Made by a program: the position numbers and the translations under genes. Positions 31,567 to 60,685 of a stretch of 64,000 nt of DNA are shown here, piece by piece (the first letter of the stretch is position 1; the number at the start of each line of letters is the position of its first letter). The notes under the pieces are model-generated. The model saw nothing but the letters and a program-made list of their open reading frames with translations, did no database searches and was not told the DNA's origin. This stretch comes from Cellulosimicrobium cellulans (GTDB lineage: Bacteria; Actinomycetota; Actinomycetes; Actinomycetales; Cellulomonadaceae): contig NZ_JAMXST010000005.1 of NCBI RefSeq assembly GCF_024124905.1, positions 310,001 through 374,000 of the forward strand, written 5' to 3'.

Positions 31567-33333
31567 TCAGCCGCAGGCGATCGCGTCGTACGCGACGTCG
31601 TACGTCTGCGCGTGGTTCTCCCCGCCGCCCGCGAGGCGCGCGACGACGCTCACGGTGCCCGCGTCGACCGAGGCCGACCGGGTGGAGAACGACTGGTACG
31701 CGTTCGCGTCCGGAGCGACCTGGCCGAACGCCCGCTGGCCGAACGGCGTCACGAGGCGCAGCGACACGGGCTGGTCCTCGCCGTTGGTCGCGCGGACGGC
31801 GACGTACGCGGTGCCGTTCAGGCACCGCGCCTCCGCCTCGATCGCGTCGACGCGGGGGTTGCCGACGCCGTTGATCGCGAACGTGTCCTCGGACAGCGAG
31901 GCGACCGCGTGCCCGATCGCGCGGGACATGATGTCGAGCGCGGTCGCGTCGACGTTGTCGATCGTGTCCGCGGGCGAGTGGTAGTTCGGGTCGTAGAAGA
32001 TGCCCTCGGTGCCGCCGAACAGCGCGACCTCCTCGGCTGTCTTCGAGCCGTCCGCGCCGGTGAACAGGCCGGACGCCGGGATCCCGTTCTCGATGAACGC
32101 CTGGTAGTCGGAGCGGCCCGAGAACTCGGTGTCGACCCACGCCTGGTCGATGCCGTCGAAGTAGTCGGTGAACACCGCCTCGGTCTCGGCCGAGCCCGGC
32201 GGCACCTCGACGGGCGCGGGGTACGTCGACTCGTTCGCGTCGTACACGCCGATGATGTAGTTCGGCGAGCCGACCATGTCGAAGTTGAGATAGGTCGCGA
32301 TGTCGTCGAGCGCCGCGGGGTCGTTCTCGACGAGGTCGCTCACGTAGTGCGTCGAGCCGCGCAGCCCGACCTCCTCCGCGCCCCACCACGCGAACCGGAC
32401 CGCGTTCTCGACGTCCTGGCCGCCGTCGGTCGCGGCGGCGAGCTGGACCGCGACCTCCAGGATCGCGGCCGACCCAGAGCCGTTGTCGTTGATGCCCGGG
32501 CCGTCCTCGACGCCGTCGAGGTGCGCGCCGACCATGACGACGTTGTGGTCGCGACCGCCCGGCGTCTGGGCGAGCACGTTGAACGTCTCGAACTCCTCGA
32601 CGTGCGTCTGCAGGTCGTAGGTCGCGACCGCCTCGGCACCGCCCGCGATCGCCGCGAGGATCGCCTGGCCGTCGGCCTGCGTGATGCCGACGGTCGGGAC
32701 CCAGACGTCGCTGGCCTCGCCGAGGGTCGGGTTGAGCGCGCCGTCGGTGTTGTTGTAGAGGATCACGGCGGCGGCGCCGGCCTCCGCGGCGAACCGTGCC
32801 TTGTCCGCGAACGGGCACGACCCGCGGCTGACCAGCGCGACGGCGCCGTCGACCGCGACCCCGTCCCAGGTGTCGGCGGTGCAGCCCTGGACCAGCGCGT
32901 CGGCGGGCTGGACGATCGGGCCCGTGACGCCGTCGTCCGGGGTGTCGGGGGCGAACTCGGCGGGGTACACGTCCGACGTCACCTCGACGCCGGCCGCGGT
33001 GAGGGACAGGTCGTCGGTGACCAGGTCCTCGAACGTGAAGTACTGGCGCTCGGGCTCGTAGCCCGCGGCCCGCAGGGCGTCCTCGACGTAGACGGCGCTC
33101 GCCTCGTAGCCGGGCGTCTCCATCGCGCGGTTGCCGCCGTTGGCGTCCGCGATGTCCTGGAAGTCCTGGAGCCGCTGCATGACCGCGTCGCCGGTGACGA
33201 GGTCCTCGAGCGGGGGAGGCCCGTCGGCGGCGCGGAGGCCGCCCCCGGGGGCAGCGCCGACGGGCGCTGCGGTCAGAGCCGCGAGCACGAGGCTCGCGGC
33301 GGCGGCAGACGGGACGATCGTTCGTGGTCTCAC
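31567..33333 (-). CDS. Secreted M28-family aminopeptidase with PA domain and shared C-terminal domain
   Basis: 588 residues. Signal peptide (VLAALTAAPVGAA) 1-28. A PA domain (about 130-270: GPIVQPADALVQGCTADTW, LVSRGSCPFADKARFA) is inserted before the zinc peptidase core: GAHLDGVEDGPGINDNGSGS (His and bridging Asp), WWGAEEVGLRGS (catalytic Glu), NFDMVGSPN (Asp) and YHSPADT (His). It removes N-terminal residues from peptides outside the cell, like the S. griseus aminopeptidase. Residues about 498-588 are an extra domain starting ARCLNGTAYVAVRATN, also found in the enzymes at 40149 and 58505. GTG 33333 has AGGAGG upstream. Confidence 0.93.
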   Translation of the reverse strand: MRPRTIVPSAAAASLVLAALTAAPVGAAPGGGLRAADGPPPLEDLVTGDAVMQRLQDFQDIADANGGNRAMETPGYEASAVYVEDALRAAGYEPERQYFTFEDLVTDDLSLTAAGVEVTSDVYPAEFAPDTPDDGVTGPIVQPADALVQGCTADTWDGVAVDGAVALVSRGSCPFADKARFAAEAGAAAVILYNNTDGALNPTLGEASDVWVPTVGITQADGQAILAAIAGGAEAVATYDLQTHVEEFETFNVLAQTPGGRDHNVVMVGAHLDGVEDGPGINDNGSGSAAILEVAVQLAAATDGGQDVENAVRFAWWGAEEVGLRGSTHYVSDLVENDPAALDDIATYLNFDMVGSPNYIIGVYDANESTYPAPVEVPPGSAETEAVFTDYFDGIDQAWVDTEFSGRSDYQAFIENGIPASGLFTGADGSKTAEEVALFGGTEGIFYDPNYHSPADTIDNVDATALDIMSRAIGHAVASLSEDTFAINGVGNPRVDAIEAEARCLNGTAYVAVRATNGEDQPVSLRLVTPFGQRAFGQVAPDANAYQSFSTRSASVDAGTVSVVARLAGGGENHAQTYDVAYDAIACG

Positions 33334-33541
33334 GCATCCTCCTCGACAGTGGCCCCCGCCGACCGACCCCGGTCGTGTCGGGGTCCGGCCGAGTCGCACA
33401 CGAGACGCGACGCTGCGAGGGCTCGTGTGCTCGCGAGCGTAGGCCCACGCGGCCACGCGCGAAACCCCTGGGCGCGCACGGGTCGGCTGTGGTCGGCCCG
33501 GGTGGCGACCAGGCGTGGGCGGCGTCGGGCAGACTGTGCCC

Positions 33542-34879
33542 GTGCCCGGATTCGCCGTCGTCGACCTCGAGACCACGGGGTTCTCCCCGCGTCTCGGCGA
33601 CCGGGTCGCCGAGGTCGCGGTGGTGCTGGTCGACGCCGCGGGCCGGGTCGAGGACGAGTGGTCCACCCTGGTCAACCCCGAGCGCGACCTGGGGCCCCAG
33701 CACGTGCACGGCATCGCGGCGGCCGACGTCGCCCTCGCCCCGACGTTCGACCGCGTGGCCCCCGCGCTCCTGCGCCTGCTCGCCGGGCGCGTCCTCGTGG
33801 CCCACAACGCGGCGTTCGACACACGGTTCCTGCGCGCGGAGATCGGGCGCGCGGGCATCGCGGCCGCGATCGACCCCGTCGCGTGCCTGTGCACGCAGCA
33901 GCTCGCGGGCCGGTACCTCACGGGCTCGCGCGCGCTCGCCGCGTGCTGCGCGGCCGTGGGCGTCGTGCACGACGGCGTCCACTCGGCCCTGGGCGACGCG
34001 CGCGCCACCGCGGGGCTGCTCGGGTACTACCTCGACGTCGCGGCCGACGACGAGTGCTGGGACGTGGCACGCGCCGCGGCCGACGGGGTGCGGTGGTCGC
34101 TGCCCGCCTCGCTCCCCGGCGTGGAGCCGGTCCTGCGCGGCGCGAGCCGCGCCCGCGGGCACTGGCTCGCCGGGCTCGACGAGGCACCGAGCACCCGCGC
34201 GGGCGACGCGCGCGCCCAGGCCGAGCGCCCGGACGTCGACACCGAGACCTACCTGCGTCTTCTCGACGCCGCGCTCCTCGACCGCTACGTCTCGCACTCG
34301 GAGCGTGCGGCGCTCCTCGCCGAGGCGCGGCGGGCCGGGCTGGACCGGGCCGCGGTCGAGGGCCTGCACCGCGACTACCTGACCGCCCTCGCCCGGGCGG
34401 AGCTCGACGCCCTCGACGGCGCGACCGCCACGGGCGATCGCGACGACGGCGGCTCCGTCCGCGACGACCCCGCGCTGCACGAGGTCGCCGGCCAGCTCGG
34501 CCTCGACGCCGACGACGTCGCGGGAGCCGTCGAGGCGGCGCTCGGGGCGCGCCTCGCGGCCGAGCTCGCCGTCGCGCCACGCCCGGCGTTCGTGCTCGCC
34601 GACGGCGACGAGGTCGTGCTCACCGGGTCGATGTCGCGCACGCGCGAGGCCTGGGAGCGCGACGTGCGGGCCGCCGGCCTCTCGCCCTGGCCCTACGTGA
34701 CGCGCCGGAGCCGGCTCGTCGTCGCCGCCGATCCGGACTCGCTCTCGACGAAGGCCCGCACGGCCCGGCGGTACGGCATCCCCGTCGTCACCGAGGCAGC
34801 CCTCGTGGCACTGCTCGCCGCCCGGGGAGGGCCGAGCGGACGCACGTCGGGCGCCGGGGTGCGACGCTGGGCGTCATGA
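33542..34879 (+). CDS. DnaQ-family 3'-5' exonuclease with C-terminal BRCT domain
   Basis: 445 residues. The exonuclease domain (1-165) has ExoI FAVVDLETTGFSP, ExoII VLVAHNAAFDTRFL and ExoIII HSALGDARATAGLL (DEDDh type). The middle (170-345) is helical and variable. Residues about 360-425 form a BRCT domain (EVVLTGSMSRTREAWERDV with LVVAADPDSLSTKARTARRY). Such proteins act in DNA repair or replication processing and resemble actinobacterial UvrC-/epsilon-like exonucleases. GTG 33542 is chosen: CAGACT lies six bases upstream (leaderless); GTG 33536 is an alternative. The stop overlaps the next start (ATGA). Confidence 0.9.
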   Translation: MPGFAVVDLETTGFSPRLGDRVAEVAVVLVDAAGRVEDEWSTLVNPERDLGPQHVHGIAAADVALAPTFDRVAPALLRLLAGRVLVAHNAAFDTRFLRAEIGRAGIAAAIDPVACLCTQQLAGRYLTGSRALAACCAAVGVVHDGVHSALGDARATAGLLGYYLDVAADDECWDVARAAADGVRWSLPASLPGVEPVLRGASRARGHWLAGLDEAPSTRAGDARAQAERPDVDTETYLRLLDAALLDRYVSHSERAALLAEARRAGLDRAAVEGLHRDYLTALARAELDALDGATATGDRDDGGSVRDDPALHEVAGQLGLDADDVAGAVEAALGARLAAELAVAPRPAFVLADGDEVVLTGSMSRTREAWERDVRAAGLSPWPYVTRRSRLVVAADPDSLSTKARTARRYGIPVVTEAALVALLAARGGPSGRTSGAGVRRWAS

Positions 34880-35895
34880 GCCCGCACGCCTCGCCCGGCA
34901 CCGGCACCCCGGCGGACGCCGGTACCGACGCCGACGCGCTCGTCGACGGGCTCTTCGCGCTGCCGCTCGAGCAGTTCGTCGTCGCCCGCACCGCGGCGGC
35001 GAAGGAGATCAAGGCGTCGGGGGACGCCGTCGGGGCGGAGCGCGTGGCGCGGCTCGCGAAGCCGACCGTGGCGGCGTGGGTCGTCAACCAGGTCGCGCGC
35101 GAGCGACCCGACGACGTCGCCGCCCTCGTCAGCCTCGGGGACGAGCTCCGCGACGCGACGGCCGACCGCGACCGCACACGCATCCGCACGCTCGACCGGC
35201 TGCGGCGCGAGCGCGTGGAGCGCGTCGTGGGCGAGCTGCGCGACGCGGGCGAGGTCGCCGGCCGGGCGGTCTCCGCGACGGCGCTCGACCGGCTCGCGGA
35301 GACGCTCACCGCCGCCGTCATGGACCCGGACGCGGGCGCGCTCGTGCGCGCGGGGCGGCTCTCGCAGGCGCTGCAGCACGTCGGGTTCGGGATCGTCGAC
35401 GAGGGCGGCGAGCCCGCCGACGTCGTCGAGCTGCGGGCGCGGACCGGCGGCACCGCGGGGCCGGGCGGGCCTGGGACCGCGGACCCGGGGACGAGCACGA
35501 CGCGCGGCGGGCGCGGAGCCCGGTCCGCGCGGGCCGACGCCGGCTCGGCCGACGGGGAGAGCCCCGCGGAGGACGCCGTGGCGGCCGCGGAACGGGAGGT
35601 CGAGGAGACGGCCGCCGAGGTCGACCGCATCGAGGCCGAGCGCGACGAGGCGGGCACGCGCGTGCGCGCGGCGAGCGACGCCGTCGGGCAGGTCGAGGAC
35701 GAGCTCGGGCGCGTCGAAGACGAGCTGGCCCGGCTCGCCGACGAGCGCGAGGACCTGCGCGCGCGGCTCGCCGAGGCGCGCGACGCCGTCGCAGCGGCCC
35801 AGGAGTCGCTCGACGACGCCGACGCGCGGCTCGACGCCGCCGAGGAGCGCGCCGCGGCCGCCCGCAAGGCCCGGCGCACCGCGCGCCGCGGCTGA
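34876..35895 (+). CDS. Coiled-coil protein of unknown function
   Basis: 339 residues, coupled by ATGA to the exonuclease gene. The N-terminal 190 residues are a conserved-looking helical domain (VDGLFALPLEQFVVARTAAA, KPTVAAWVVNQVARERPDDV, LRRERVERVVGEL). A Gly/Thr/Ala linker (about 190-230) follows. The last 110 residues are an Ala/Glu/Arg coiled coil (AEREVEETAAEVDRIEAERD onward) ending RKARRTARRG. There are no membrane or enzyme motifs. Coupling suggests a partner in DNA metabolism, for example a scaffold; this is inference. Confidence 0.75.
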   Translation: MSPHASPGTGTPADAGTDADALVDGLFALPLEQFVVARTAAAKEIKASGDAVGAERVARLAKPTVAAWVVNQVARERPDDVAALVSLGDELRDATADRDRTRIRTLDRLRRERVERVVGELRDAGEVAGRAVSATALDRLAETLTAAVMDPDAGALVRAGRLSQALQHVGFGIVDEGGEPADVVELRARTGGTAGPGGPGTADPGTSTTRGGRGARSARADAGSADGESPAEDAVAAAEREVEETAAEVDRIEAERDEAGTRVRAASDAVGQVEDELGRVEDELARLADEREDLRARLAEARDAVAAAQESLDDADARLDAAEERAAAARKARRTARRG

Positions 35896-36048
35896 GCGGA
35901 CCCACCGGGTCCCGGCGTCGGACGCGTGCGTGCCGCGCCGACCGACGCGCTACGGAGCGGTAGGGATTCCCCGTACGCCGGTGCGGGAGAACCACACGAT
36001 CGGCCACCGACCGTTGACCTACAGCGGGTGCGGCGGCACCGTCGGCCC

Positions 36049-37395
36049 ATGCCCCGCACCGCACGCGGCGACGCCGCCGCCGCTCACTCGCTCCCGGCCC
36101 TGCACCCGGCCTCGACCTCGGCTCCGACCCGGCCTGGTCGCGGCCTCACGGCGCTCGTCGGGCTGGTCGTCGGAGCCTGCGCCGTGCTCGCCGGGGCGCC
36201 TGCCGGCGCGACGAGCGCGGTGGCGAGCGACGCCGTCGTGCACGTCGCCACCGCGAACGAGCTGCGCGCTGCGCTCGGCGCCGCTGTGCCGGGCCAGACG
36301 ATCGAGCTGGCGGACGGGACGTACGTCGGCAACTTCAAGGTCACGGGCCGGGCGGGGACGGCGAGCGACCCCGTCGTGCTGCGCGGGAGCGCCGCGGCCG
36401 TGCTGCGCACGTCGAGCGGGGGCGGCAACGTCCTGCACCTCACCGACGCCGACCACTGGACGGTGCAGGGCATCACCGTCCAGCACGCGCAGAAGGGCAT
36501 CATGGTCGACTCGTCCGACCACGTGACGATCGACGCCGTCACGGTGCACGACCTCGACATGGAGGGCATCCACTTCCGGTCGTCGAGCTCGTACGGGATC
36601 GTGCGCGGGTCGACCATCCACGACACCGGCCAGAACCTGCGCGGCATGGGCGAGGGGGTCTACGTCGGCTCGGCGAACGACTACTCCGACCGGTCGGACC
36701 ACGTGCAGATCGTCGACAACACCATCGGCCCGCTCGTGCGCGGGGAGAACGTCGACGTCAAGGAGGGGACGACGGGCGGCCGGATCGCGGGCAACACGTT
36801 CGTCGGCGACGGGCTCACGGGGGCGAACTACGACGACTCGTGGGTCGACGTGAAGGGCAACGACTACGTCGTCGAGGACAACGTCGGGACGGTCACGACG
36901 AAGTCCGGGTTCCAGACGCACCAGCAGTCCCCGGGGTGGGGCTGCGGCACCGTGTTCCGCGGCAACCACGCCGACCTCACGGGCGCGACGGGCAGCGGCC
37001 GGTACGCGATCGAGGTGACGGTGCACGACCCCGTGACCTGCCCGGTCACGGTGACGGACGACAACACGGTCGTCGGCGGGGACGGGCTCGTGAACCCCGG
37101 CGTTCCCGTGACGGGCACGGGCGGCGGCACCCCGACGCCCGACCCGACGGAGCAGCCCACGCCCGACCCGACCGACGAGCCGGACCCCGACCCGACGGAC
37201 ACCCCGACGCCGGAGCCCGAGCACCCCGCGGAGTGCGACGACCCGTCGCTCGCCGGATGGTCCGCGACGACGGTCTACGTCGGCGGCGACCGGGTGCTGC
37301 ACGGCGGGAGCCTGTGGCAGGCGCGGTGGTGGACGCAGGGCGAGACGCCGTCGTCCGCGGCGTGGGGGCCGTGGCAGCACGTCGCGCTCTGCTGA
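36049..37395 (+). CDS. Secreted right-handed beta-helix protein with chitin-binding type CBM5/12
   Basis: 448 residues. A long signal peptide (GLTALVGLVVGACAVLAGAP) is cleaved near residue 45-55. Residues about 65-345 are a parallel beta-helix of the pectate-lyase/chondroitinase-B style: GQTIELADGTYVGNFKVTGR, VQGITVQHAQKGIMVDSS, MEGIHFRSSSSYGIVRGSTI. A Pro/Thr/Asp linker leads to a CBM5/12 module (LAGWSATTVYVGGDRVLHGG, WQARWWTQGETPS). It may cleave an acidic polysaccharide while bound to chitin or a similar glycan. The start ATG 36049 has no clear Shine-Dalgarno. The substrate is unknown. Confidence 0.85.
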   Translation: MPRTARGDAAAAHSLPALHPASTSAPTRPGRGLTALVGLVVGACAVLAGAPAGATSAVASDAVVHVATANELRAALGAAVPGQTIELADGTYVGNFKVTGRAGTASDPVVLRGSAAAVLRTSSGGGNVLHLTDADHWTVQGITVQHAQKGIMVDSSDHVTIDAVTVHDLDMEGIHFRSSSSYGIVRGSTIHDTGQNLRGMGEGVYVGSANDYSDRSDHVQIVDNTIGPLVRGENVDVKEGTTGGRIAGNTFVGDGLTGANYDDSWVDVKGNDYVVEDNVGTVTTKSGFQTHQQSPGWGCGTVFRGNHADLTGATGSGRYAIEVTVHDPVTCPVTVTDDNTVVGGDGLVNPGVPVTGTGGGTPTPDPTEQPTPDPTDEPDPDPTDTPTPEPEHPAECDDPSLAGWSATTVYVGGDRVLHGGSLWQARWWTQGETPSSAAWGPWQHVALC

Positions 37396-37455
37396 CGCCC
37401 GCGGGTCGGGCGGAACGGGTCGGGCGCGGCGTCGTTCGTCGTCCGCGAACGCGGG

Positions 37456-37476
37456 ACTGAGCCGGGCACGCTCAAG
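37456..37476 (+). promoter_or_regulatory. HAIR-like (HspR) operator upstream of Hsp20
   Basis: TGAGC (37458-37462) and GCTCA (37470-37474) form an inverted repeat with exactly 7 bases between. The right half GCTCAAG matches the HspR/HAIR half-site ACTCAAG except its first base; the left half matches its complement at 5 of 7 positions. HAIR boxes (CTTGAGT-N7-ACTCAAG) control dnaK, clpB and Hsp20 genes in actinobacteria. It ends 58 bases before the start codon. Confidence 0.6.
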
Positions 37477-37534
37477 GTTGGACAGGTCAGGACGCCACGG
37501 GCCGACCGTGGCACGACAGACCTGGAGGACCACC

Positions 37535-38068
37535 ATGATCAGCACCTACACCGTGGCGCCGTTCCGCCCGCTGCCCACCGAGCGCGTCGTGCGCCAGCTC
37601 TGGGCGCGGCCCGCGGGTGCGCCCGTCGCGCGGACGGGCTACGCGCCCGCCGCAGACGTCTACCGCGAGGGCGACGACCTCGTCGCCCGCTTCGACCTGC
37701 CGGGCGTCGACCCGGAGCGGGACGTGACCGTCGAGCTCGAGGGTCGTCGCCTCGTCGTCCGCGGCGAGCGTCGCGACCAGCGCGTCGTCGAGGCCCCCGC
37801 GGCGGAGACGACCGAGGCGGCCGACGGGGAGCAGCCCGAGTCGGGCACGGACGAGACCGGCGCCGACGAGGCGGCCGAGGTCGCCCCGGCCGGGCGCCGC
37901 GTCCGCGAGGTGCGGTTCGGCGCGTTCCGCCGCACCGTCACCCTGCCGAAGACCGCGGAGGCCGACGCCGTCCGCGCGTCCTACGACGCGGGCGTGCTCA
38001 CCGTGACGGTCGCCGGCGTGTTCGCCGGCCGCGCTCCCCAGCGCATCGAGGTCACGCGCGCGGCCTGA
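37535..38068 (+). CDS. Hsp20/alpha-crystallin small heat-shock protein
   Basis: 177 residues. The crystallin domain runs from residue 38 (YAPAADVYREGDDLVARFDL) to about 165, with PGVDPERDVTVELEGRRLVV, FGAFRRTVTLP and YDAGVLTVTV. An acidic insertion of about 40 residues (EAPAAETTEAADGEQPESG onward) splits the domain after GERRDQ; it is longer than the usual loop. It is an ATP-independent holdase for unfolding proteins in the cytosol. GGAGGACC lies just before ATG 37535 and a HAIR-like operator lies upstream, so heat-inducible HspR control is likely. Confidence 0.93.
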   Translation: MISTYTVAPFRPLPTERVVRQLWARPAGAPVARTGYAPAADVYREGDDLVARFDLPGVDPERDVTVELEGRRLVVRGERRDQRVVEAPAAETTEAADGEQPESGTDETGADEAAEVAPAGRRVREVRFGAFRRTVTLPKTAEADAVRASYDAGVLTVTVAGVFAGRAPQRIEVTRAA

Positions 38069-38146
38069 CGCCGCACCGCCGGCGCGGCGGACGACGTCGC
38101 GCCGGCGCTCCGACCCCGGTCGCGCCCGCCCCTGCGCGCCCGGACC

Positions 38147-38186
38147 ACGGACGGGGCCGGCACCTTCGGGTGCCGGCCCCGTCCGT
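38147..38186. terminator. Bidirectional terminator with UUCG tetraloop
   Basis: A perfect 18-bp stem, ACGGACGGGGCCGGCACC (38147-38164) with its complement at 38169-38186, is capped by TTCG, an exceptionally stable tetraloop. It lies between convergent Hsp20 and haem-degrading-domain genes. Confidence 0.85.
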
Positions 38187-38195
38187 CTGCCCGGC

Positions 38196-40078: not shown

Positions 40079-40080
40079 CA

Positions 40081-40148: not shown

Positions 40149-42299
40149 TCAGCCGCAGGCGACCGCCGGGTAGGCGGCGTCCTGGACCGTGGGGGCAGCG
40201 TCGTCGGGTCGAGTGCCCGTCACCGTGACGGAGCCCGCGTCGGCCGCGACCGACCGCGTCGAGAACGACTGGTACGCGGCCTTGCCGGGCGCGACCGCCG
40301 CGAACGTGCGCGTGCCGAACGGCGTCGTGAGCGTGACGTCGGCGGGCACGTCGCCGGTGTTCGTCGCGCGGACCGCGACGTACGCCGTGCCGGCGAGGCA
40401 GCGCGCGCTGGTCTCGACGTCGAGGGCGGGGCCCGCCGCGTCCTCGCGCTGGAGCGTCACCCGGTCCACGACGCGCTGCGACCCGGTCGCGTAGGTGGTG
40501 ACGGTCAGCGACGTGGGCGTGACGTCGAGGTCGGAGTAGCTGGCCTCGCGCGACTGCTCCCAGCGCGCCGTCCACGGCTTGGCGCCGTCGAAGTCGTAGA
40601 ACTTGGAGCCCGACGACGAGTTGCCCGTGAGGTAGAGGACCTGGTCCTCGTCCGGGGTGAGCACGTCACCCTCGGCCGGCGCCTCGGCCGGGACGACGGG
40701 CGTCGCGCCCTCCATGAGGTACGAGCGCGTGTAGATGTGGTCGTGGCCCGCGAGGACGAGGTCGACGCCCAGGTCGCTGAAGACGGGCGACAGCGCCTCG
40801 CGCATGCGGACCACGTCCGTGTCGCGCGAGTGGAACGCCTGGCTGTACAGCGAGTGGTGGAACGTCACGACGACCCAGTCGTACGCGTCGCCGTGCGTGC
40901 CGATCACGTCGCGCAGGAACGCCTCGTGGCCGGCGATCTCGGCCGGGTCGGAGTCGTTCGAGTCGATCGCCACGACGAGCACGTTGTTGTACGCGTACCA
41001 GTAGTCCCGGCGCTGCTCGGTCGACAGGTTCGGCATCGCGTAGTGCTGGTCGTAGAGCGCGGACGCGGTGTCGTGGTTGCCGTCCTGGACGGCGAAGCGC
41101 AGCTCGCGCATCTGGCGCGGCGCGAGGAACCCGGCGTACTGCGCGGTGCTCCCCGCGTTCTCCACCTGGTCGCCCGCGGAGATGAGGAACGCGGTGTCCG
41201 GGTGGCGCGCGGTCATCGTGTCGAGGTTGGCGGCCCACCGCGTGGCGTCGTTCGTCGCGTTGCCGCTCGCGCCGATCTGCGCGTCGCCGATGAACAGCGC
41301 GCTGAACTCGTCGCCGAACGTGCCCGTGGTGAACGTCGTCGGCGTGGACCAGCCGGTGCTCGCGCTGCCGACGCGGTACGCGTAGGCCGAGTCCTCCTCG
41401 AGCCCGGTGATCGTCGCGTGGTGGTACGTCGCGCCGTCCGCGGCCGTGCCGTCCCGGGACGACGACGTCGCGGCCGCCTGCCAGTCGACCTCGCCGCCCG
41501 CCTCGTCGGCACGGGTCCACTGCACCTCGCCCGCGCCGGGCAGGGTCGAGAACCACGCGACGTTGGCCTGCGTCTCGTCCGCGCCGACGTTGAGCGCGAC
41601 GTCGCGCACCTCGCCGTGCGTCGGGACGAGCGAGCGGACGTCGAGGTAGATGTCCGAGCTGGTCGGCGCGTCCTGGTAGAGCGCGACGGAGATCGTGTTC
41701 TCGCCGGGCTCGAACGCGTCGGCCGGCACGACGAACGTTCCCGTCACCGGGTCCGTGCGCCCGTTGCCGTGGTACTGCAGGTTCTCCGTGATCTCGCGGC
41801 CGTCGTCGCCCAGGCGCACGACCTCCTCGCCGTTCACGTAGACGATCACCGCGTCGTCGTAGACGATCTCGCCCTCGAACGCCGGGACGCCGTCGAGGTC
41901 CTCCGCGGTGAGCTCCACGTCGGTGCGGAAGAAGAACGTGGGCACGTCCGTCGTCGTGCCCTCGATGTACTGGGTGAGGAGCGTCGTGATCGGGAACGCG
42001 TCCCCGATGCCCGTCGCGGCGCCGCGCTTGGCGCCGAACGCGCCGGTCGCGGACTTCCACGCGGAGTCGTCGAACGCGGTGGTCGTCCACACGCGCTGGT
42101 CCGCGGCGGTGCCGGCTGGGTTCGTGTTGTCGTCGAGGTAGCGCCAGGTCGTGCCGGACGTCGAGAGCAGGGACTCGTCGGCGGCGGCCGTCGAGGTCGC
42201 GGTCGCGGCGACGAGCACCGTCCCCACCAGGGAGACGGCGAGCGCCGACGCCGCCGCGCGCGTCAGCGCGCCGGGCAGCCGGGAGGCGTGCGGGTTCAT
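40149..42299 (-). CDS. Secreted purple-acid-phosphatase-like metallophosphoesterase with shared C-terminal domain
   Basis: 716 residues. Signal peptide 1-40 (SALAVSLVGTVLVAATATST). Residues about 45-230 are a beta-sandwich module (DDSAWKSATGAFGAKRG, VNGEEVVRLGDDG) like those of alpha-mannosidase/sialidase-type binding domains. An Fn3-like purple-acid-phosphatase N domain follows (ALNVGADETQANVAWFSTLP). The catalytic core has GDAQIG, GDQVENAG, GNHD, HHSLY and GHDHIYTRS (binuclear metal site). Residues about 628-716, starting ARCLAGTAYVAVRATN, repeat in the proteins at 31567 and 58505. It hydrolyses phosphate esters outside the cell. ATG 42299 has GAAGGA upstream. Confidence 0.92.
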   Translation of the reverse strand: MNPHASRLPGALTRAAASALAVSLVGTVLVAATATSTAAADESLLSTSGTTWRYLDDNTNPAGTAADQRVWTTTAFDDSAWKSATGAFGAKRGAATGIGDAFPITTLLTQYIEGTTTDVPTFFFRTDVELTAEDLDGVPAFEGEIVYDDAVIVYVNGEEVVRLGDDGREITENLQYHGNGRTDPVTGTFVVPADAFEPGENTISVALYQDAPTSSDIYLDVRSLVPTHGEVRDVALNVGADETQANVAWFSTLPGAGEVQWTRADEAGGEVDWQAAATSSSRDGTAADGATYHHATITGLEEDSAYAYRVGSASTGWSTPTTFTTGTFGDEFSALFIGDAQIGASGNATNDATRWAANLDTMTARHPDTAFLISAGDQVENAGSTAQYAGFLAPRQMRELRFAVQDGNHDTASALYDQHYAMPNLSTEQRRDYWYAYNNVLVVAIDSNDSDPAEIAGHEAFLRDVIGTHGDAYDWVVVTFHHSLYSQAFHSRDTDVVRMREALSPVFSDLGVDLVLAGHDHIYTRSYLMEGATPVVPAEAPAEGDVLTPDEDQVLYLTGNSSSGSKFYDFDGAKPWTARWEQSREASYSDLDVTPTSLTVTTYATGSQRVVDRVTLQREDAAGPALDVETSARCLAGTAYVAVRATNTGDVPADVTLTTPFGTRTFAAVAPGKAAYQSFSTRSVAADAGSVTVTGTRPDDAAPTVQDAAYPAVACG

Positions 42300-53859: not shown

Positions 53860-54193
53860 AGCAAGGATCCGCTCAGACGAGGGACGTGGTCGCGGCCGGC
53901 GTAGCACCCGTCCCGCGGGTGGGCGGCCACGGCGAGCATAGGAAGCGGCCGCGCCGGTTTGGTCCCGAAATGTCCGGTGACGGAACGAGGCTTCGGCCAA
54001 CGTTCACCGCCTCGTGCCCGGGGTGCCACCTGCACCTGTGGAGCCGCAACGTCGTGGACACCTGCCGGGCCGTCGTCCACAGGGCGGGACGCGCGGTTCC
54101 GTCGGCGGTGCGGTTTCGCTAGGTTGCTGGGCAGTCCGCGCGCCCCGTCGGTGTGGCGTGCGGGGTGGTTCGCATCGATCTGCAGGGGGTCTC
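53860..54193. other. Divergent intergenic region between importer operon and lipoprotein gene
   Basis: 334 bases without a gene. On the minus strand TATGCT (near 53940) could be the importer -10. On the plus strand TAGGTT (54120-54125) is a plausible -10 for the lipoprotein gene, about 70 bases before its start. A single GTTCACC at 54002 recalls a PHO-box half but lacks the tandem partner. Nothing else is evident. Confidence 0.4.
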
Positions 54194-54817
54194 GTGCGTC
54201 GTTCTCGTGTGCTGTCCCGTGCCCGACGGCGGTCGCTCGTCGTGGGCGTCGTCGTCGCGGTGGGGTGCGTGGTCGCCGGGTGCACCGGTGGTGGCGGCCC
54301 TGGTCCGTCACCGTCCGTCGACGAGCCGGTCGTGCCGTCGCCGTCGGAGTCGGAGTCGCCCGCGCCGTCACCGACTGAGACCGGACCGGTGAAGCCGGAA
54401 CGTCCCGCGGCGATGGACCGCGACGACGCCGAGGGTGCCGCCGCAGCGGCGGAGTACTTCCTGTCGTTGTACGGGTACGTCCTCGCGACGGGCGACACCG
54501 CCGAGTGGGACGCGATGACGTGGGCTGAGACGTGCGAGTTCTGCACCAACGTACGAGCGGACGCTGAAGCGATCGCCAACGCAGGTGATACGTATGAGGG
54601 GGCCGAGATCACGGTCTCGGCTGTCACGCCGGGTGAGCTGGATACGTTCGTTGGCGCTTATCCGGTTGTTGCCAACTTTCAGCAAGCCGCGCTGGTGCGC
54701 ACGAGCAGGGCCGGCGAAGTGCTGGAAGAGCAAGCTGCGAGTAGCGGCCGTCTTCAGATCGACCTGTTGCACGACGGTTCGAGTTGGCGCGTTCTCTCGC
54801 TCACGGTCGGTGAGTAA
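54194..54817 (+). CDS. DUF6318-like lipoprotein
   Basis: 207 residues. GTG 54194 has AGGGGGT upstream. Lipobox VAGC in VVAVGCVVAGCTGG, then a Ser/Pro/Glu linker (PSPSESESPAPSPTETG). The domain PAAMDRDDAEGAAAAAEYFL, LYGYVLATGDTAEWDAMTW, CEFCTNV has the pattern I associate with DUF6318. Two cysteines three apart (CEFC) probably form a disulfide. The second half is unusually A+T-rich for this genome. Unknown function; paired with the next gene, four bases away. Confidence 0.75.
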   Translation: MRRSRVLSRARRRSLVVGVVVAVGCVVAGCTGGGGPGPSPSVDEPVVPSPSESESPAPSPTETGPVKPERPAAMDRDDAEGAAAAAEYFLSLYGYVLATGDTAEWDAMTWAETCEFCTNVRADAEAIANAGDTYEGAEITVSAVTPGELDTFVGAYPVVANFQQAALVRTSRAGEVLEEQAASSGRLQIDLLHDGSSWRVLSLTVGE

Positions 54818-54820
54818 ACC

Positions 54821-55723
54821 ATGCGTCGAGTTGCTCTCGTCAGTTTGGTCGTTGTATTCCTCGGAATTCTCTCGGCTTATTCCGCACAGGCCAATCCGAC
54901 CGATACGACGACTCTTCAAGGAAATGCACAAGGGGAGAACGTCACTCTCAACGGCGCGACTTCCGGTCAACACGGTCCAAGCGCCGACGGTGCGTCCGAT
55001 TCGGGTGGTGGTCCGGCGTCGGAGGCGTACCGGCGCGGGCCGGCGTACCGGTGCTACGACGGTGACCATGCCACGACGCTGCCCGGGCTGGTCCCGGTGT
55101 GCCCGGACGGGCAGAACGCGGCGGGGTTCGACCCCGGGTGCACCCCGGACGAGGTCGCGTTGGAGCCGTTGTTCCGCCAGACCTGGACCAACACCCCGGA
55201 CGGCACCCGGACCGCGGTCTCGGGCTGGGAGCTCGTCGCCGACGCGTCCTGCCTCGGCGCCGTCGACCTGGCCGGCGAGGCCGAGGCGGCGTTCCGCACC
55301 CTGACCATCGCGCCGTCGCCGATCGTGGTCCAGCCCCCGGACGGGTGGACCCTGGTCAACGTCCCCACCATCACCTACACCCAGCCCGGCGAGCAGACCC
55401 TGGACACGACCCTGCTCGGCATCCCCGTGCAGATCCGCGCCACCCCACGCTCGTACGCGTGGGACTACGGCGACGGCACGCCCCCGGTCTCCACGACCGA
55501 CCCCGGTGCGGCCTACCCCCACCACACGGTCGCGCACACCTACGACCAACCCGCCGAGCAGGTCCAGATCAAGCTCACCACGACCTGGTCCGGACAGTTC
55601 CGCATCACCGGCACCACCACCTGGACCGACGTCACCGGCACCGCGACCACCACCAGCACCGCCGACCCGCTACGCGTCTACGAGGCCCGCTCCCGCCTCG
55701 TCACCGACGACCTGTCCGGCTGA
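54821..55723 (+). CDS. Secreted PKD-domain protein
   Basis: 300 residues. Signal peptide VALVSLVVVFLGILSAYSAQ (cleavage near residue 24). The first ~60 mature residues are Gly/Ser/Thr-rich and A+T-rich in codon use; then a Cys-containing segment (AYRCYDGDH, VPVCPDGQN, DPGCTPDE) and a PKD-like beta domain: RSYAWDYGDGTPPVSTTDPG, YPHHTVAHTYDQPAEQ. PKD domains usually mediate surface interactions. It follows the lipoprotein gene by three bases, so the two likely work together at the envelope. The convergent 73-bp repeat follows its stop. Confidence 0.78.
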   Translation: MRRVALVSLVVVFLGILSAYSAQANPTDTTTLQGNAQGENVTLNGATSGQHGPSADGASDSGGGPASEAYRRGPAYRCYDGDHATTLPGLVPVCPDGQNAAGFDPGCTPDEVALEPLFRQTWTNTPDGTRTAVSGWELVADASCLGAVDLAGEAEAAFRTLTIAPSPIVVQPPDGWTLVNVPTITYTQPGEQTLDTTLLGIPVQIRATPRSYAWDYGDGTPPVSTTDPGAAYPHHTVAHTYDQPAEQVQIKLTTTWSGQFRITGTTTWTDVTGTATTTSTADPLRVYEARSRLVTDDLSG

Positions 55724-55739
55724 CACCCGCATCGAACCA

Positions 55740-55812
55740 CCGCGAGATCGACCCGAGCGGCCGAGATCGACCCTCAGAAGGCCGATCTCGCGACGCACAG
55801 GCCGATCTCGCG
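55740..55812. repeat. 73-bp structured intergenic repeat, copy B
   Basis: The reverse complement matches 29403-29475 at 63 of 73 bases with no gaps; differences cluster in the spacers between the four 11-bp motifs, which are conserved. It fills the space between two convergent genes (stops at 55723 and 55823), so it may also act as their bidirectional terminator. Confidence 0.9.
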
Positions 55813-55822
55813 TGGTGGTTGC

Positions 55823-56686
55823 TCAGGCGAGCGACACCTCGACGCCTCCGGAGAGGAACGAGTCGTGGAGCGTGATCGTCGCCGGGACGGCGTCGGCGGG
55901 GACGTCGAACACGACGGTGCCCTCGACGCTGTTGCCCGGGTTGATGTCGGTGAGGAACGAGTTCGCGTCGCCGAGGTAGATCGCGGCGCTCGAGTCCGCG
56001 GAGTGCTCGCGCCCGGCGGTGTCGACGAGCTTCTGGCTGCTGCCGTCGAACATCTGCGCCCGGTCGCCGATGTTCGTCACCGTCATGTGCACGAGCACGA
56101 ACTGTCCCTGCGCCTGCGCGTTGAGGTACTCGTCGCCGACCGTCGCGACGCCCGTCTCCACGGACGTCACGGTGAACTCGAACTTGCCGTCGCGCACGGC
56201 CGTCCCGACGCCCGGCGCCGCGGGCGCCGGCTCCTCCGCGGCGGGCTCCTCCGGGATGGACTCGGCCTCGGGCGCCTCGTCCGCCGTCTCGGGCTGGACC
56301 GCGCCGTCCGCGCCGTCCGTTCCGGCGACGGCGGCGGGCGTGGACGGCTCGTCGCCTCCCCCGCCGCCGAGGCTCGCACCGACGACGGCGAGCAGCACGA
56401 CGACGCCCACCCCCGTGAGGACTTTGTGCCGCGCGAACCAGTTCTTGCGCGGCGGCGTCGGCCCGACGGGCGGCTGCGCACCGAGGTGCGGCTGCCCGGG
56501 CTGTCCCGGGTACGGCGGCTGGCCGGGGTACCCGGCCTGGCCCGGGTACGGGGTCGCGGACGCGTGTCCGGACACCGCCCCCTGCAGGGGTGAGCTGGAG
56601 GGCTGGCCTGCGGGCGCCGTCGGGCCCTGCTGGGCCGGGTGCTGCGCGGGCTGCTGGGGGAACGTGCCCCCGTTGGGTGCGGACAT
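55823..56686 (-). CDS. Membrane-anchored DUF4352-like protein
   Basis: 287 residues. The N-terminal ~80 residues are Pro/Gln/Gly-rich (GYPGQPPYPGQPGQP) and cytoplasmic. One membrane helix (LTGVGVVVLLAVVGASLG) and an acidic Pro/Glu linker follow. The extracellular beta-sandwich starts at about residue 160: RDGKFEFTVTSVETGVATVG, GQFVLVHMTVTNIGDRAQMF, SVEGTVVFDVPADAVPATIT, the DUF4352 immunoglobulin-like pattern. The function is unknown. GAGGAGATC precedes ATG 56686. It is divergent from the histidine kinase gene, which has a similar Pro-rich N-terminus. Confidence 0.83.
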   Translation of the reverse strand: MSAPNGGTFPQQPAQHPAQQGPTAPAGQPSSSPLQGAVSGHASATPYPGQAGYPGQPPYPGQPGQPHLGAQPPVGPTPPRKNWFARHKVLTGVGVVVLLAVVGASLGGGGGDEPSTPAAVAGTDGADGAVQPETADEAPEAESIPEEPAAEEPAPAAPGVGTAVRDGKFEFTVTSVETGVATVGDEYLNAQAQGQFVLVHMTVTNIGDRAQMFDGSSQKLVDTAGREHSADSSAAIYLGDANSFLTDINPGNSVEGTVVFDVPADAVPATITLHDSFLSGGVEVSLA

Positions 56687-56891
56687 CCTGATCTCCTCGT
56701 CTCGGCCGCACCGTGGTCGTGCGGCAGGTGCGGTGGTCGTCGCTGCGTTCGAGGACGATCGTGTCTGCGAGGGGGCGGTCGGCGGATCGGCCGAGCGGGT
56801 CGTCCCCGCGAGCCGGTCGGGGGACCCCGAGCGTCGTCCCCGAGCCGATCGGGGGACGTCCGACGTCGGCGCCCGTGCGTATGCTCGCCGC

Positions 56892-58337
56892 ATGTACCCC
56901 CCTCCGCAGCAGCCTGGTGGCCCCGCGGTGCCGCCCGGCGCCGCGGGGCCACCGCCGTACCCGGGCCGGCCGGCGCCCGGCCCGCCTGTCCCCCCGCCCG
57001 GCCCGGTCTCCTACGGCGTGCCGTACGGCCCGGCGCAGCCCGTCCCGTACGACGCCGGGTGGCGCCCGACGCCGGCCCCTCGCCCCGGAGGGGCGCGCCG
57101 GTTCTGGTCCGCGGCCGGGACCGCCGTCGCCGTGGCGGCGACGTTCTTCGTGGGCGTGCTGGGCATGTCCTTCGACGCCACACGCCACGGCCCCCAGATC
57201 AGCGGCGGCCAGCTCGGGCTCGCGATCCTGTGGATCGTCCTGGCGGCGTGCGTGTCGGCCGCGGTGGTCTGGCGCATCCGCTCTCCGCTCGCCGTCTGCC
57301 TCGGCACCGCGGCAGCAGGGATCCTCACGCCCGTCGGCGCGCTCGCGCCGCTGCTCGCGCTGCCGTTCGTCCTCGCGCGCGAGCAGCGCCGTCCGGTGCT
57401 CGCCGGCGCCGTCGCGGCGACCGCCGCCGCCGTGGGCGCCTCGTTCTGGCGGGACGCGGCGCGCGGCGGCGACGCCGTGATCTTCTCCTTCAGGCCGACG
57501 GACGGCGGAGAGACGTCCTACCTGGCGCCCGCCGGCTACATCGTCATCGGCGCGCTGCTCGTCGCGGTGTCCGTCGGGGCGGGGCTGGTGCGTCGCTATG
57601 CGGGGCGTGCGCACGTCGCGCAGCAGACCGCCGCCGTCGAGACGCGCCGCGCGGAGACGCTGCGCACCCATGCCGAGGACCTGCGCTCCCAGACCGACCA
57701 GCTCCGCACCGAGATCTCCCGCCAGGACGAGCGCGAGCTCATCGCGCGCGAGATGCACGACACCGTCGCCCACAACCTGTCGGTCATGTCGCTGCAGGCC
57801 TCGGCGCTCGAGGTGACGACCGACGACCCCGAGGTCGTCGACGCCGCCCGGACCATGCGCTCGTCCGCCCACCGCGCGCTCGAGGAGATGCGCGCGCTCA
57901 TCACGTCGCTGCGCGACGGCGCCGAGCAGTACACCGGCTCTGCGCCGGCGCTCGGCGACCTGGCGACGCTCCTCGACGACGCCCGCTCGTCCGGCGTCGA
58001 CCTCGCCGCGACCGTGTTCGTCACGGACGCCGACTCGGCACCACCCGCGCTCACGCGCGCGGTGTACCGGGTGGTGCAGGAGGCGCTGACGAACGTGATG
58101 AAGCACGCGCCGGGTGCGCGTGCGGACGTCGACGTGCGCGCGCGTCCCGGGGACGGCGTGGACCTCGCCGTGCGCAACGCCCTGACGGCGGACGCGTCCG
58201 GCGTCCCGGGCAGCGGCAACGGGATCGTCGGGATGCGCGAGCGCTGCGAGGCGCTCGACGGGACGTTCTCCGCGGGCGTCGAGGACGGACGGTTCGTCGT
58301 CCGCGCCCACCTCCCGTGGGAGCGGCCCGCGCCATAG
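56892..58337 (+). CDS. Sensor histidine kinase (HisKA_3, NarL-partner type)
   Basis: 481 residues. A Pro/Gly/Tyr-rich N-terminus (1-68), then about five membrane helices (70-235), a coiled linker, and a dimerisation box IAREMHDTVAHNLSVMSLQA with phosphoacceptor His289, ending in a HATPase_c domain (VVQEALTNVMKHAPGA, GNGIVGMRERCEALDG). HisKA_3 kinases phosphorylate NarL/LuxR-type regulators; no regulator gene is adjacent, but one lies at 62770. TATGCT (56880-56885) is six bases before ATG 56892, so it is leaderless. The signal is probably envelope-derived. Confidence 0.9.
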   Translation: MYPPPQQPGGPAVPPGAAGPPPYPGRPAPGPPVPPPGPVSYGVPYGPAQPVPYDAGWRPTPAPRPGGARRFWSAAGTAVAVAATFFVGVLGMSFDATRHGPQISGGQLGLAILWIVLAACVSAAVVWRIRSPLAVCLGTAAAGILTPVGALAPLLALPFVLAREQRRPVLAGAVAATAAAVGASFWRDAARGGDAVIFSFRPTDGGETSYLAPAGYIVIGALLVAVSVGAGLVRRYAGRAHVAQQTAAVETRRAETLRTHAEDLRSQTDQLRTEISRQDERELIAREMHDTVAHNLSVMSLQASALEVTTDDPEVVDAARTMRSSAHRALEEMRALITSLRDGAEQYTGSAPALGDLATLLDDARSSGVDLAATVFVTDADSAPPALTRAVYRVVQEALTNVMKHAPGARADVDVRARPGDGVDLAVRNALTADASGVPGSGNGIVGMRERCEALDGTFSAGVEDGRFVVRAHLPWERPAP

Positions 58338-58446
58338 CTGTCACGCACCCCGCAGGACGAGGTCGGCACCGGCGGCGACGAGCATGCTCCGGACCGTACG
58401 GGCCGCGGGCTGCCTCCCGCGGTCCGCGGGCGCGGTCACGGAACAG

Positions 58447-58487
58447 CACCCGCGGTGCCGCTCATCGGCCGAGCGGCACCGCGGGTG
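58447..58487. terminator. Bidirectional terminator between histidine kinase and GH43 genes
   Basis: A perfect 17-bp stem, CACCCGCGGTGCCGCTC (58447-58463) with its complement at 58471-58487 and a 7-base loop, lies 18 bases past the GH43 stop. Confidence 0.8.
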
Positions 58488-58504
58488 GTCCTCCCAGGAT
58501 GCGC

Positions 58505-60685
58505 CTACGCGCAGGTGAGCGCGTCGTACGCGGCCGTCACCTCCGTCGTCGCGCCCGTGACGTCGGTGACGACGACTAGCGCCTCGCCGGCGTCGAGCGC
58601 ACCGCGGGCCTTGAACGACTGGTAGGCGTTCTTGCCCGGGTCGACCTGGGCGAAGGACCGCTCGCCGTGGTCCGTCCGCAGGGCGATCGCGACGGTCTCG
58701 TCGCCGTCGTTGGTCGCGCGGACGGCGAGGTACGGGGTCCCGGCGAGGCAGCGGGGCTGCGCGGTGACGGTGACCTGCGGGTCGACGGGCGGGGCCTCGG
58801 CCGGGAAGACGTCGAGCGCGTCGAGCTCGGTGTACCAGGTGAGCTTGGTCAAGGCGACGGTGTTCCACCCCTGCTGCAGCTCGACCTCGTGCGTCACGGA
58901 CTGCCAGTTGCCCCACGTGGTGTGCGGGAACGTGACGACGCCGGCGTCCGCGCCGTTCACCGTGACGGTGCTCGACGAGGCGAGCGTGTAGCCGCCCCGC
59001 TCGGAGCCGTTCGCGTACCGGACGCCGAGCGTGTACGCCCCGGCCTCGTCGGCGTGGACCTGGAGGGCGACGGAGCTGTCGAGGAAGTCGAGGCCGCCGA
59101 CCTTCTGCCCGCCCGAGGCGCCCGCGGCGCTCCCGACCGAGCCGCGCGTGATGACGCCGTCCTCGAACTCGTACCGCGTCGCGTCGGACGGGATGACGGG
59201 CGGGGCGGACGGGCGCGGGTCGCGCGTCGCCGGGTAGACGTCGAACGCGTCGAGCTCGGTGTAGAACGTCGCGCGGGTCAGGGTGATCGTGTTGGTGCCC
59301 GCGACGAGGTCCACGAGGTGCTCGGACGTCTGCCAGTTGCCCCACGCGGTGTGCGGGAAGACGACGGTCTCCGCGACCGCGCCGTTGACCGCGAGCGTGC
59401 TCGTGGACGGCACGCGCGTCGAGCCGTCGAAGGAGCCGTTCGCGAACCGGATGCCCAGGAGCGCCGGCCCGGCCGCGTCGGCGTGCACCTCGACCGTCAC
59501 GGACGAGTCCGCGAAGTCCAGGCCGCCGACCTTCGCCCCGCCCGACGCCCCACCGTCGGCCACGACGCGCGCGTTCGTGACGACGCCGTCCTCCGCCTGG
59601 TACCGGTCGGACGCCTGCGGGACGAACGGGACGCCGTCGGCCGTCCACTCGAGGTCCGCGACGTACATCGCGCGGTACGTGAACGCCGCGTTCCAGCCGT
59701 GGAAGACGAGAGCGTCCGAGCCGTCCGGCGCTGTGACGACGTCCTGCCCGCCCGGGCCGCGCACGTCGCCCTGGAACCGGTCGCTCGTGAGGAGCTCGGT
59801 CGTCGCCTTGGTCCACGGGCCCGCGAGGCTCGACGCCGTCGCGTACGACGTGCGGTACGCCCCGCCGTAGAAGTCGTTCGCGGAGTAGAAGAGGTAGTAG
59901 GTGCCGTCGCGCTCCAGGAGCGTCGGGCCCTCGACGACGCGGCCCTCGTAGGGCGTGTCCACACGGATGAGCTCGACGGGCGGACCCGTCAGCGTCGCGC
60001 CGTCGGCCGAGAGCGGCTGGGCGAAGATGATCGCCGTCTTGCCCGTGCAGCAGTTCCCGTCGGCCTTCCACAGCAGGTAGAGCTGGTCGCCGTCGACGAA
60101 CGTCGCGGCGTCGATCGCGCCGCCGAGGTCCTCCGTGCCGGCCTCGCCGTTGGGGCAGACGATCGGGTCGTCGCCGACGGGCTCGAACGGACCCTCGGGG
60201 GTGTCGGACAGCGAGAGCCCGATGCACTGGCGCGGGCTCGTCGCGTCGCGCGCCGTGTAGTAGAGCGCGTAGCCGCCCTCGACCGCGGACACCTCCGGGG
60301 CCCAGACGCAGCGGTCGGTCGCACCGCCCGGCGAGAAGGTGCAGGACTCGCTGACCCAGGCGCCGAGGTCGGGCGCCGCGTCGGTCGGGGCGCTCCAGGT
60401 GACCAGGTCCGTCGACGTGCGGTGCTGCACGTTCTGGCCCTGGTCGTTGGTCGCATAGGCGTGGTAGACGCCGTCGACGAGCAGGATGTCGGGGTCGGGG
60501 AAGTTGGCGTCGACGACCGGGGAGATCGTCGGCTCCGCGGCGGCCGCCGGTGCCACGGTGGACGCGGTCGGCAGGGTCGGCGCCGCTGCGGCGGCGGCCG
60601 CGCCCGAGACCGCCAGCCCGAGCGCGACCAGCGCACTCGTGACAGCGGTAGCACGCGAGCGCGCGCGGGACAGGGAGAGCTTCAT
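58505..60685 (-). CDS. Secreted GH43-family glycoside hydrolase with two CBM-like modules and shared C-terminal domain
   Basis: 726 residues. Signal peptide (SALVALGLAVSGAAAAAAA) 1-36. The GH43 five-blade propeller (52-385) has the catalytic base Asp64 in ANFPDPDILL, CVWAPEV, the modulating Asp in DAATFVDGDQ and the acid Glu in RVVEGPTLLE. Two beta-sandwich modules follow (YQAEDGVVTNARVVADGG and YEFEDGVITRGSV; CBM35/CBM6 pattern), sharing AWGNWQT/TWGNWQS. Residues about 640-726 (PRCLAGTPYLAVRATN) match the ends of the proteins at 31567 and 40149. It probably removes arabinose or xylose from plant glycans. GAGAGGAC precedes ATG 60685. Confidence 0.92.
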   Translation of the reverse strand: MKLSLSRARSRATAVTSALVALGLAVSGAAAAAAAPTLPTASTVAPAAAAEPTISPVVDANFPDPDILLVDGVYHAYATNDQGQNVQHRTSTDLVTWSAPTDAAPDLGAWVSESCTFSPGGATDRCVWAPEVSAVEGGYALYYTARDATSPRQCIGLSLSDTPEGPFEPVGDDPIVCPNGEAGTEDLGGAIDAATFVDGDQLYLLWKADGNCCTGKTAIIFAQPLSADGATLTGPPVELIRVDTPYEGRVVEGPTLLERDGTYYLFYSANDFYGGAYRTSYATASSLAGPWTKATTELLTSDRFQGDVRGPGGQDVVTAPDGSDALVFHGWNAAFTYRAMYVADLEWTADGVPFVPQASDRYQAEDGVVTNARVVADGGASGGAKVGGLDFADSSVTVEVHADAAGPALLGIRFANGSFDGSTRVPSTSTLAVNGAVAETVVFPHTAWGNWQTSEHLVDLVAGTNTITLTRATFYTELDAFDVYPATRDPRPSAPPVIPSDATRYEFEDGVITRGSVGSAAGASGGQKVGGLDFLDSSVALQVHADEAGAYTLGVRYANGSERGGYTLASSSTVTVNGADAGVVTFPHTTWGNWQSVTHEVELQQGWNTVALTKLTWYTELDALDVFPAEAPPVDPQVTVTAQPRCLAGTPYLAVRATNDGDETVAIALRTDHGERSFAQVDPGKNAYQSFKARGALDAGEALVVVTDVTGATTEVTAAYDALTCA

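Follow-up and report, generated by a model that had tools for sequence, protein, structure and literature searches.

Several kinds of end module are known from exported bacterial proteins. Carbohydrate-binding modules (CBMs) stand N-terminally, internally or C-terminally and are often repeated, the substrates of sortase, exosortase and rhombosortase have a membrane helix at their end, and many exported enzymes of Bacteroidota carry type IX C-terminal domains, which are beta domains similar in size to the one described here. SLH and CWB2 repeats, usually in triplets, fix various exported proteins non-covalently to wall polymers, and their conserved surface arginines may contact the polymer (extracts of PMC5817068). 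We analysed a stretch of 64,000 nucleotides from Cellulosimicrobium cellulans (the window; contig NZ_JAMXST010000005.1, positions 310,001 to 374,000), in which three exported enzymes end in the same domain, hereafter the tail. The tail is a new, undescribed domain family of a known general kind. The three enzymes and their tails are:

31567..33333, minus strand: exported M28 metallopeptidase with a PA domain, tailed, 588 residues (PF04389, expectation value (E) 5.6e-43; PF02225, E 1.8e-22)
31570..31851, minus strand: C-terminal tail domain of the M28 peptidase, 94 residues, flush with the stop codon (tail alignment and profile)
40149..42299, minus strand: exported metallophosphatase of the purple-acid-phosphatase type, tailed, 716 residues (PF16656, PF00149)
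40152..40427, minus strand: C-terminal tail domain of the metallophosphatase, 92 residues, flush with the stop codon (tail alignment and profile)
58505..60685, minus strand: exported glycoside hydrolase (GH) of family GH43 with CBM35/CBM6-like modules, tailed, 726 residues (PF04616, E 2.1e-47; PF16990, E 4e-13)
58508..58777, minus strand: C-terminal tail domain of the GH43 enzyme, 90 residues, flush with the stop codon (tail alignment and profile)

The first-pass annotation of the window had claimed that three unrelated enzymes share one C-terminal domain, and this was borne out at these coordinates; the motifs it had singled out (RCL-G-xYxAVRATN, AYQSF and a terminal Cys-Gly/Ala) were all found in the three tails. 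Pfam reads the M28 enzyme as PA plus M28 and the metallophosphatase as Pur_ac_phosph_N plus Metallophos. Among the three tails (90–94 residues each), 34 of 96 alignment columns were invariant, and identity to the M28 tail was 54% for the metallophosphatase tail and 46% for the GH43 tail.

Searching the whole genome (4.67 Mb in 10 contigs) with a profile of the three window tails returned 50 tail stretches, which frame reading resolved into 49 proteins. The likeness is far beyond chance, with 46 of the 50 matches at E below 1e-20. In 48 of the 49 proteins a single copy of the tail ended 0–6 residues before the stop codon; the count of three is thus an effect of window size, since the genome holds 49 tailed proteins. 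A plausible export signal was present in 47 of the 48 C-terminally tailed proteins, the remaining gene being cut by the stretch examined, in a crude scan, biased because for each gene it chooses the start codon that favours a signal peptide most. Ahead of the tail, 42 of the 48 bodies had a catalytic family and six had none (Pfam, by our own reading), the families numbering 28 by reading and counted as at least 25, as some co-occur in one protein and some are perhaps distantly related. Glycan-active carriers belonged to GH2, GH10, GH13, GH30, GH43, GH51-type, GH92, GH97, GH127 and polysaccharide lyase family PL8; further carriers were of the glucoamylase, MGH1 and sialidase types, or were a polysaccharide deacetylase, a 3-keto-disaccharide hydrolase and a xylose-isomerase-like TIM barrel. 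The tail was also found on M28, S8, metallophosphatase, 5'-nucleotidase, Exo_endo_phos, PAP2, SurE and asparaginase bodies, and on esterase, GDSL lipase, ThuA and GSDH bodies. Asparaginase, SurE, 5'-nucleotidase and the phosphatases share no polysaccharide substrate, which supports the reading of a shared module, and a common C-terminal domain on cargo without a common substrate points to a shared place or need. The breadth of carriers and the nearly constant C-terminal position support the earlier suggestion that the domain serves something common to exported proteins. In a 464 kb sample (the window plus 400 kb), 286 genes were called and two of 19 putative exported proteins were tailed; the crude gene finder omitted the window's M28 peptidase from the exported set, and these figures are no measure of the tailed share. 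On contig C7, nine tail ends lie within 48 kb (about 97–145 kb), on GH43, GH127, GH51-type and other genes; this group is perhaps an arabinan/xylan-type cluster.

The domain had been called unassigned, and the three window tails indeed gave nothing above threshold in Pfam, NCBIfam or PHROGs: with E up to 1, the sole Pfam match was DUF4232 (E 0.05, under its cut-off) and the sole NCBIfam match was ArfA/OmpATb (E 0.038, under cut-off, and no sorting domain), while PHROGs returned no match. Like CBM5/12, the tail is a small end module of exported enzymes, but 48 of 49 proteins have it once and at the very end, and the three window tails had no Pfam CBM match (E up to 1), so that the earlier statement that it does not look like a common CBM holds as far as the Pfam CBM models go. 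It differs from SLH and CWB2 repeats in being present as one copy per tailed protein (48 proteins) and in that the three tails had no match to the Pfam SLH, CWB2 and LysM models. With LPxTG-type sortase anchors it shares a C-terminal position that does not depend on the cargo, but the three-part signal of an LPxTG-like motif, a membrane helix and a basic end was seen in none of the 48 own C-terminal tails, read by eye, in agreement with the first-pass annotation. Its motif rhythm may resemble that of DUF11/CARDB-type and other bacterial immunoglobulin-like (Ig-like) domains, and its profile weakly matches designed Ig-like proteins; it differs in its conserved cysteine pair, in its terminal place and in that the three window tails matched no Pfam Ig, DUF11 or CARDB model (E up to 1).

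In the PDB, the tail profiles matched only the designed Ig-like proteins, and weakly (whole-sequence E 6e-4, 8e-4 and 0.93, with no single stretch passing); no natural chain matched significantly, a chain of the S-layer protein Sap at E 0.99 being at chance level. Cellulosimicrobium GH92 mannosidases are used in glycoengineering, and the body of a tailed GH92 enzyme of this genome matched the CcMan5 PDB chains. As these chains are 774–790 residues long and no natural PDB chain matched significantly, the tail has probably escaped study in the structures solved so far. No description of the domain was found in the open-access literature, subscription journals lying mostly outside the search, and a word search for anchor, sortase, cell surface and similar terms in a Cellulosimicrobium genome paper came back empty (PMC8325422).

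Homologues beyond the three window proteins, the absence of which had been named as a reason to discard the domain, were found widely by profile search. At E up to 1e-5, 42 of 119 relatives' genomes (own included) matched: all 16 of the own genus, with 26 to at least 43 matches each, and 26 of 103 outside it, namely 20 of the family and six of other families in the order. Twenty of these 26 had 1–7 matches, and the other six had 9, 12, 19, 30, 30 and 36. In a sample of the phylum, in which the best 13 candidates per genome were scored, six of 396 genomes matched (own included), all of one order. A degenerate pattern run on GTDB species genomes gave 392 stretches encoding a relative, the best 80 of which represent 79 loci; by title, 74 of these are Cellulosimicrobium and five Sphaerisporangium cinnabarinum ATCC 31213. 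The latter record (L070, L089, L096, L115 and L138) has Cellulosimicrobium-like tails and is possibly misnamed. In relatives, 146 of 147 stretches had one copy of the tail, flush with the C terminus and ending 0–6 residues before the stop codon: all 117 from named contigs and 29 of the 30 from other genera. These stretches are best matches rather than a random sample. The sole exception, L157, is a nuclease/5'-nucleotidase orthologue whose tail-like domain has CBM5/12 behind it.

The two end cysteines, which the first-pass annotation thought could close a disulfide, were both present in 128 of 139 distinct tails from seven groups and both missing in 10. The remaining tail, with only the second cysteine, proved to be an alignment slip in which both are visible by eye, so that the pair is kept or lost together in all 139 tails and a disulfide between them is likely. 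Matches with more than eight residues after the domain had been dropped beforehand, and sampling was partial in some genomes (22 of 36 matches used in G025, 22 of 30 in G037, 3 of 12 in G071, 16 of 19 in G057 and 0 of 30 in G056). Of the ten tails without cysteines, seven group in a single clade (support 100/98, with the cysteine columns kept in the tree), which rules out ten separate losses and leaves one to about four. In the tail alignment, positions 16, 18, 20 and 22 (columns are numbered here as in the M28 tail) are interleaved with 17, 19 and 21, which are mostly hydrophobic, and we infer from this that the even-numbered ones face outward on one strand. The fold is probably a small Ig-like beta-sandwich.

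Orthologues of tailed enzymes in relatives differ in what they carry in the same slot. The tailed nuclease/5'-nucleotidase matched 49 of 77 tail-less genomes at E up to 1e-100, some of the matches spanning half of the protein, and 30 loci were examined, of which 29 had readable ends (L261 ran off the end of its stretch). Five end in an LPxTG-type anchor (L262, L266, L268, L269 and L270), one in three SLH repeats (L246), six in tandem CBM5/12 (L241, L248–L251 and L267), three in one CBM5-like end (L242–L244), 12 in Ig-like repeats with or without a Lys/Pro-rich end, and two in something else. Ten of these ends were scanned with Pfam and the others classed by eye; the scan found CBM5/12 in three (half of the six tandem ends), SLH in one, Big_3_5 in two and nothing in L243 and L266, and of the three anchor-type ends that it covered, L270 matched the anchor model above its cut-off, L262 matched below it and L266 was the one without a match. 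The junction was the same in most orthologues; L267 is a shorter protein whose end follows the nuclease half, and the matches of L268 and L269 break off a few tens of residues before the junction.

Other tailed enzymes gave a different distribution. For the subtilase (23 loci, 22 readable), 18 ends were Ig-like by eye, one was an LSQTG anchor, two were short and Lys/His-rich, and one orthologue had nothing. The three GH127 orthologues had an LPxTG-type anchor, an Ig-like end and nothing, respectively. GH92 and M28 orthologues were sought in 47 family genomes with 0 to 7 tails; the nine GH92 loci had Ig-like ends (six) or nothing (three), and the five M28 loci a short His/Lys/Gly-rich end (three), nothing (one) or another end (one). 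All six full-length ThuA orthologues, out of 21 matches, carried two or three copies of a different module, tail B. These ends show the tail to be an add-on that is dispensable to orthologous enzymes, in a slot that in relatives is partly filled by known surface-attachment modules. The short Lys/His-rich ends belong to the subtilase orthologues L365 and L366, and other relatives show basic ends on Ig repeats; it is possible that such ends bind the wall electrostatically. Tail B occupies the last 200–330 residues of the ThuA-GSDH orthologues L176–L181 as a module of about 90 residues in two or three tandem copies, and ends at or beside a cysteine. A Pfam scan of eight members gave a single chance-level match in one of them. 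It occurred in 14 of the 119 genomes, with few copies each, and in none of the own genus. The notion that each genus has its own house tail was dropped, tail B being scarce and unrelated to the tail described here (hhalign probability 0.4%).

We compared own tails with the orthologous tails of g11 and of the sister genus g23, using 16 pairs for each. Enzyme bodies were 78% identical between own and g11 and 75% between own and g23, whereas the tails were 59.5% and 50.8% identical; tails thus diverge faster than enzyme bodies. Tails of unrelated enzymes were 48.2% (own/g11 set) and 48.8% (own/g23 set) identical within one genome, and 47.2% and 42.7%, respectively, across genera. With g11 the orthologous tail was clearly the closest, while with g23 it was about as similar as the unrelated tails of the same genome. 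Among 14 non-redundant own–g23 pairs, six columns (11, 16, 18, 22, 50 and 52) differed in parallel, column 52 being Tyr in 14 of 14 own and none of 14 g23 orthologous tails. Over all tails compared, Tyr52 was present in 47 of 48 own against none of 25 g23 tails, Tyr16 in 39 of 48 against none of 25, and Ala18 in 46 of 48 against 4 of 25, while Gln53 and Arg58 agreed (each 47 of 48 own and 25 of 25 g23). Between g11 and g23, four columns passed the same test, with 18 and 52 in common with the own–g23 set. There was no clear DNA-level sign of recent gene conversion among the own tails: the longest run of DNA common to two tails on unrelated enzymes averaged 16.1 nucleotides, slightly above the 14.5–14.6 in three codon shuffles, and 30 nucleotides were reached in 1 of 350 sampled pairs compared with 1–3 in the shuffles.

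The one tailed protein of the genome without a C-terminal copy is exceptional. Encoded on the minus strand of contig C6 (201615–205754; L047:1560-5696), it has degenerate internal copies of the tail at E 3e-8 and 5e-4 and a third at E 1. Pfam identified it as an extracytoplasmic function (ECF) sigma factor, with Sigma70_r2, Sigma70_r4_2 and zf-HC2 and a sub-threshold DUF11 match; judged by eye, this presumably membrane-tethered protein also has hydrophobic stretches and a CBM5/12-like end, the latter without a match to the Pfam CBM models (E up to 0.001). Its layout resembles that of the ECF52 sigma factors, described in extracts of PMC5826349 as having a zinc finger, a membrane part, a proline-rich extension and a carbohydrate-binding domain. 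As a conjecture, it may sense the ligand of the tails.

The reading that we favour, as plausible but somewhat short of probable, is that the tail retains enzymes non-covalently at the cell surface or on glycan. An enzyme would leave the cell via an ordinary signal peptide and then fold, the disulfide linking the first strand with the last residues. Positions 16, 18, 20 and 22 on a single strand would form an exposed patch with 50, 52, 53 and perhaps Arg58, and this patch would bind, without a covalent bond, a polymer of the cell's own envelope or matrix, keeping many enzymes at or near the cell; where the binding partner varies by lineage, residues of the patch would change lineage-wide. A lineage-specific polymer is favoured because of the slot comparison for one enzyme, the nuclease, and the lineage-wide difference at the putative patch. 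We also count for retention the tail-like repeats of the sigma factor and the union of a tail-like domain with CBM5/12 in L157. The surface arginines of SLH and CWB2 repeats (extracts of PMC5817068) are a parallel and no proof. Of the roles first proposed for the domain (attachment, stability or recognition by a sorting machine), the evidence thus leans to attachment, given the LPxTG-type anchors, SLH repeats and CBM5/12 in the slot, although more relatives have Ig-like ends or nothing there.

Several observations weigh against retention. Anchors were rare outside the nuclease (0 of 9 GH92, 0 of 5 M28, 0 of 6 ThuA, 1 of 22 subtilase and 1 of 3 GH127 orthologues); since most orthologues of these enzymes carry none, the slot is not generally one for anchors, and replacement of a sortase anchor as a general rule is weakened, holding for 5 of 29 nuclease ends and 0 of 20 in GH92, M28 and ThuA together. 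The own genome also has other means of anchoring, namely two genes of the sortase family and at least one substrate of the sortase type. The higher identity of own–g11 orthologous tails than of unrelated ones is plain vertical descent, no column passed the parallel-difference test between own and g11, and the tails of a further group, g24, were mixed (Tyr16 in 12 of 15, Tyr52 in 5 of 15). In the g23 set, 22 of 25 tails come from one genome, and a tree built without the six columns left two well-supported independent pairs, which is underpowered. Label changes on the tail tree numbered 11 for g23 against 23.1 after shuffling, indicating some clustering, and 21 against 21.5 for g11, indicating none. 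Given the one-genome bias, the few supported pairs and this clustering, it is possible that part or all of the g23 tails were replaced as whole units.

Three other explanations were weighed. The tail might be a stability cap, that is, an Ig-like, disulfide-closed end that shields exported enzymes from proteases and carboxypeptidases without any ligand. We consider this rather unlikely, but the frequency of Ig-like repeats in the same slot keeps it alive, and it would fit the strict C-terminal placement, the probable fastening of the last residues by a disulfide, the Ig-like repeats or bare ends of most tail-less orthologues, and the weak profile likeness to designed Ig-like proteins (whole-sequence E 6e-4, with no single stretch passing). 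Loss of a C-terminal domain also harmed a GH92 enzyme of another group: extracts of PMC10167667 report that NnGH92 of Neobacillus novalis became inactive without its C-terminal CBM32, while removal of its four-helix end left about 80% activity and halved yeast-wall binding. GH92 accessory ends can thus serve binding or structure. A cap would not, however, lead one to expect that the tails of different enzymes differ lineage-wide at a few columns; ten cysteine-free tails retain the other motifs, and untailed exported proteins occur in the own genome, as called by the crude gene finder.

Aromatic residues often bind sugars, and most own tails have an aromatic residue at the positions of Tyr16 and Tyr52, which would suit a CBM for a foreign glycan such as fungal mannan, plant arabinan or chitin that directs the enzymes to food. 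Many carriers are glycan-active (GH43, GH92, GH127, GH97, GH10 and others), and L157 places a tail-like domain beside CBM5/12. This explanation is nevertheless distinctly unlikely: the tail also stands on asparaginase, SurE, PAP2, 5'-nucleotidase and phosphatases, the glycans of its carriers are diverse, several carriers already have CBMs, and Pfam gave no CBM match for the three window tails. Least probable, in our judgement, is that the tail acts, like type IX C-terminal domains, as a signal to a machine dedicated to sorting or processing, and is perhaps cut or replaced. A large genome-wide set, one C-terminal copy, diverse cargos and a lineage-specific consensus are what such a signal would show, but the tail end lacks the membrane helix of sortase-type substrates, NCBIfam gave no sorting-domain match for the three window tails, and relatives with one to four copies would hardly justify a dedicated machine. 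It differs from the type IX case also in its host, a Gram-positive actinobacterium by kinship, and no machine or partner gene is known, no systematic search for one having been made.

A more specific form of retention, which we regard as unlikely, is that the tail is an address label read by one lineage-specific receptor, whether a protein or a polymer of the wall or capsule, with label and receptor coevolving, and all labels of one genome would then change jointly at the contact patch; the sigma factor on contig C6 may then sense the ligand and couple expression to it.

Since neither Pfam nor NCBIfam has a model that fits the three window tails, the annotation of dozens of proteins in each genome probably misses the feature that they most often share. 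If retention is true, about fifty enzymes of a polymer-degrading actinobacterium would be kept close to the cell without sortase anchors on them, and the tail would represent an unrecognised way to hold proteins at the bacterial surface and a portable tag for surface display.

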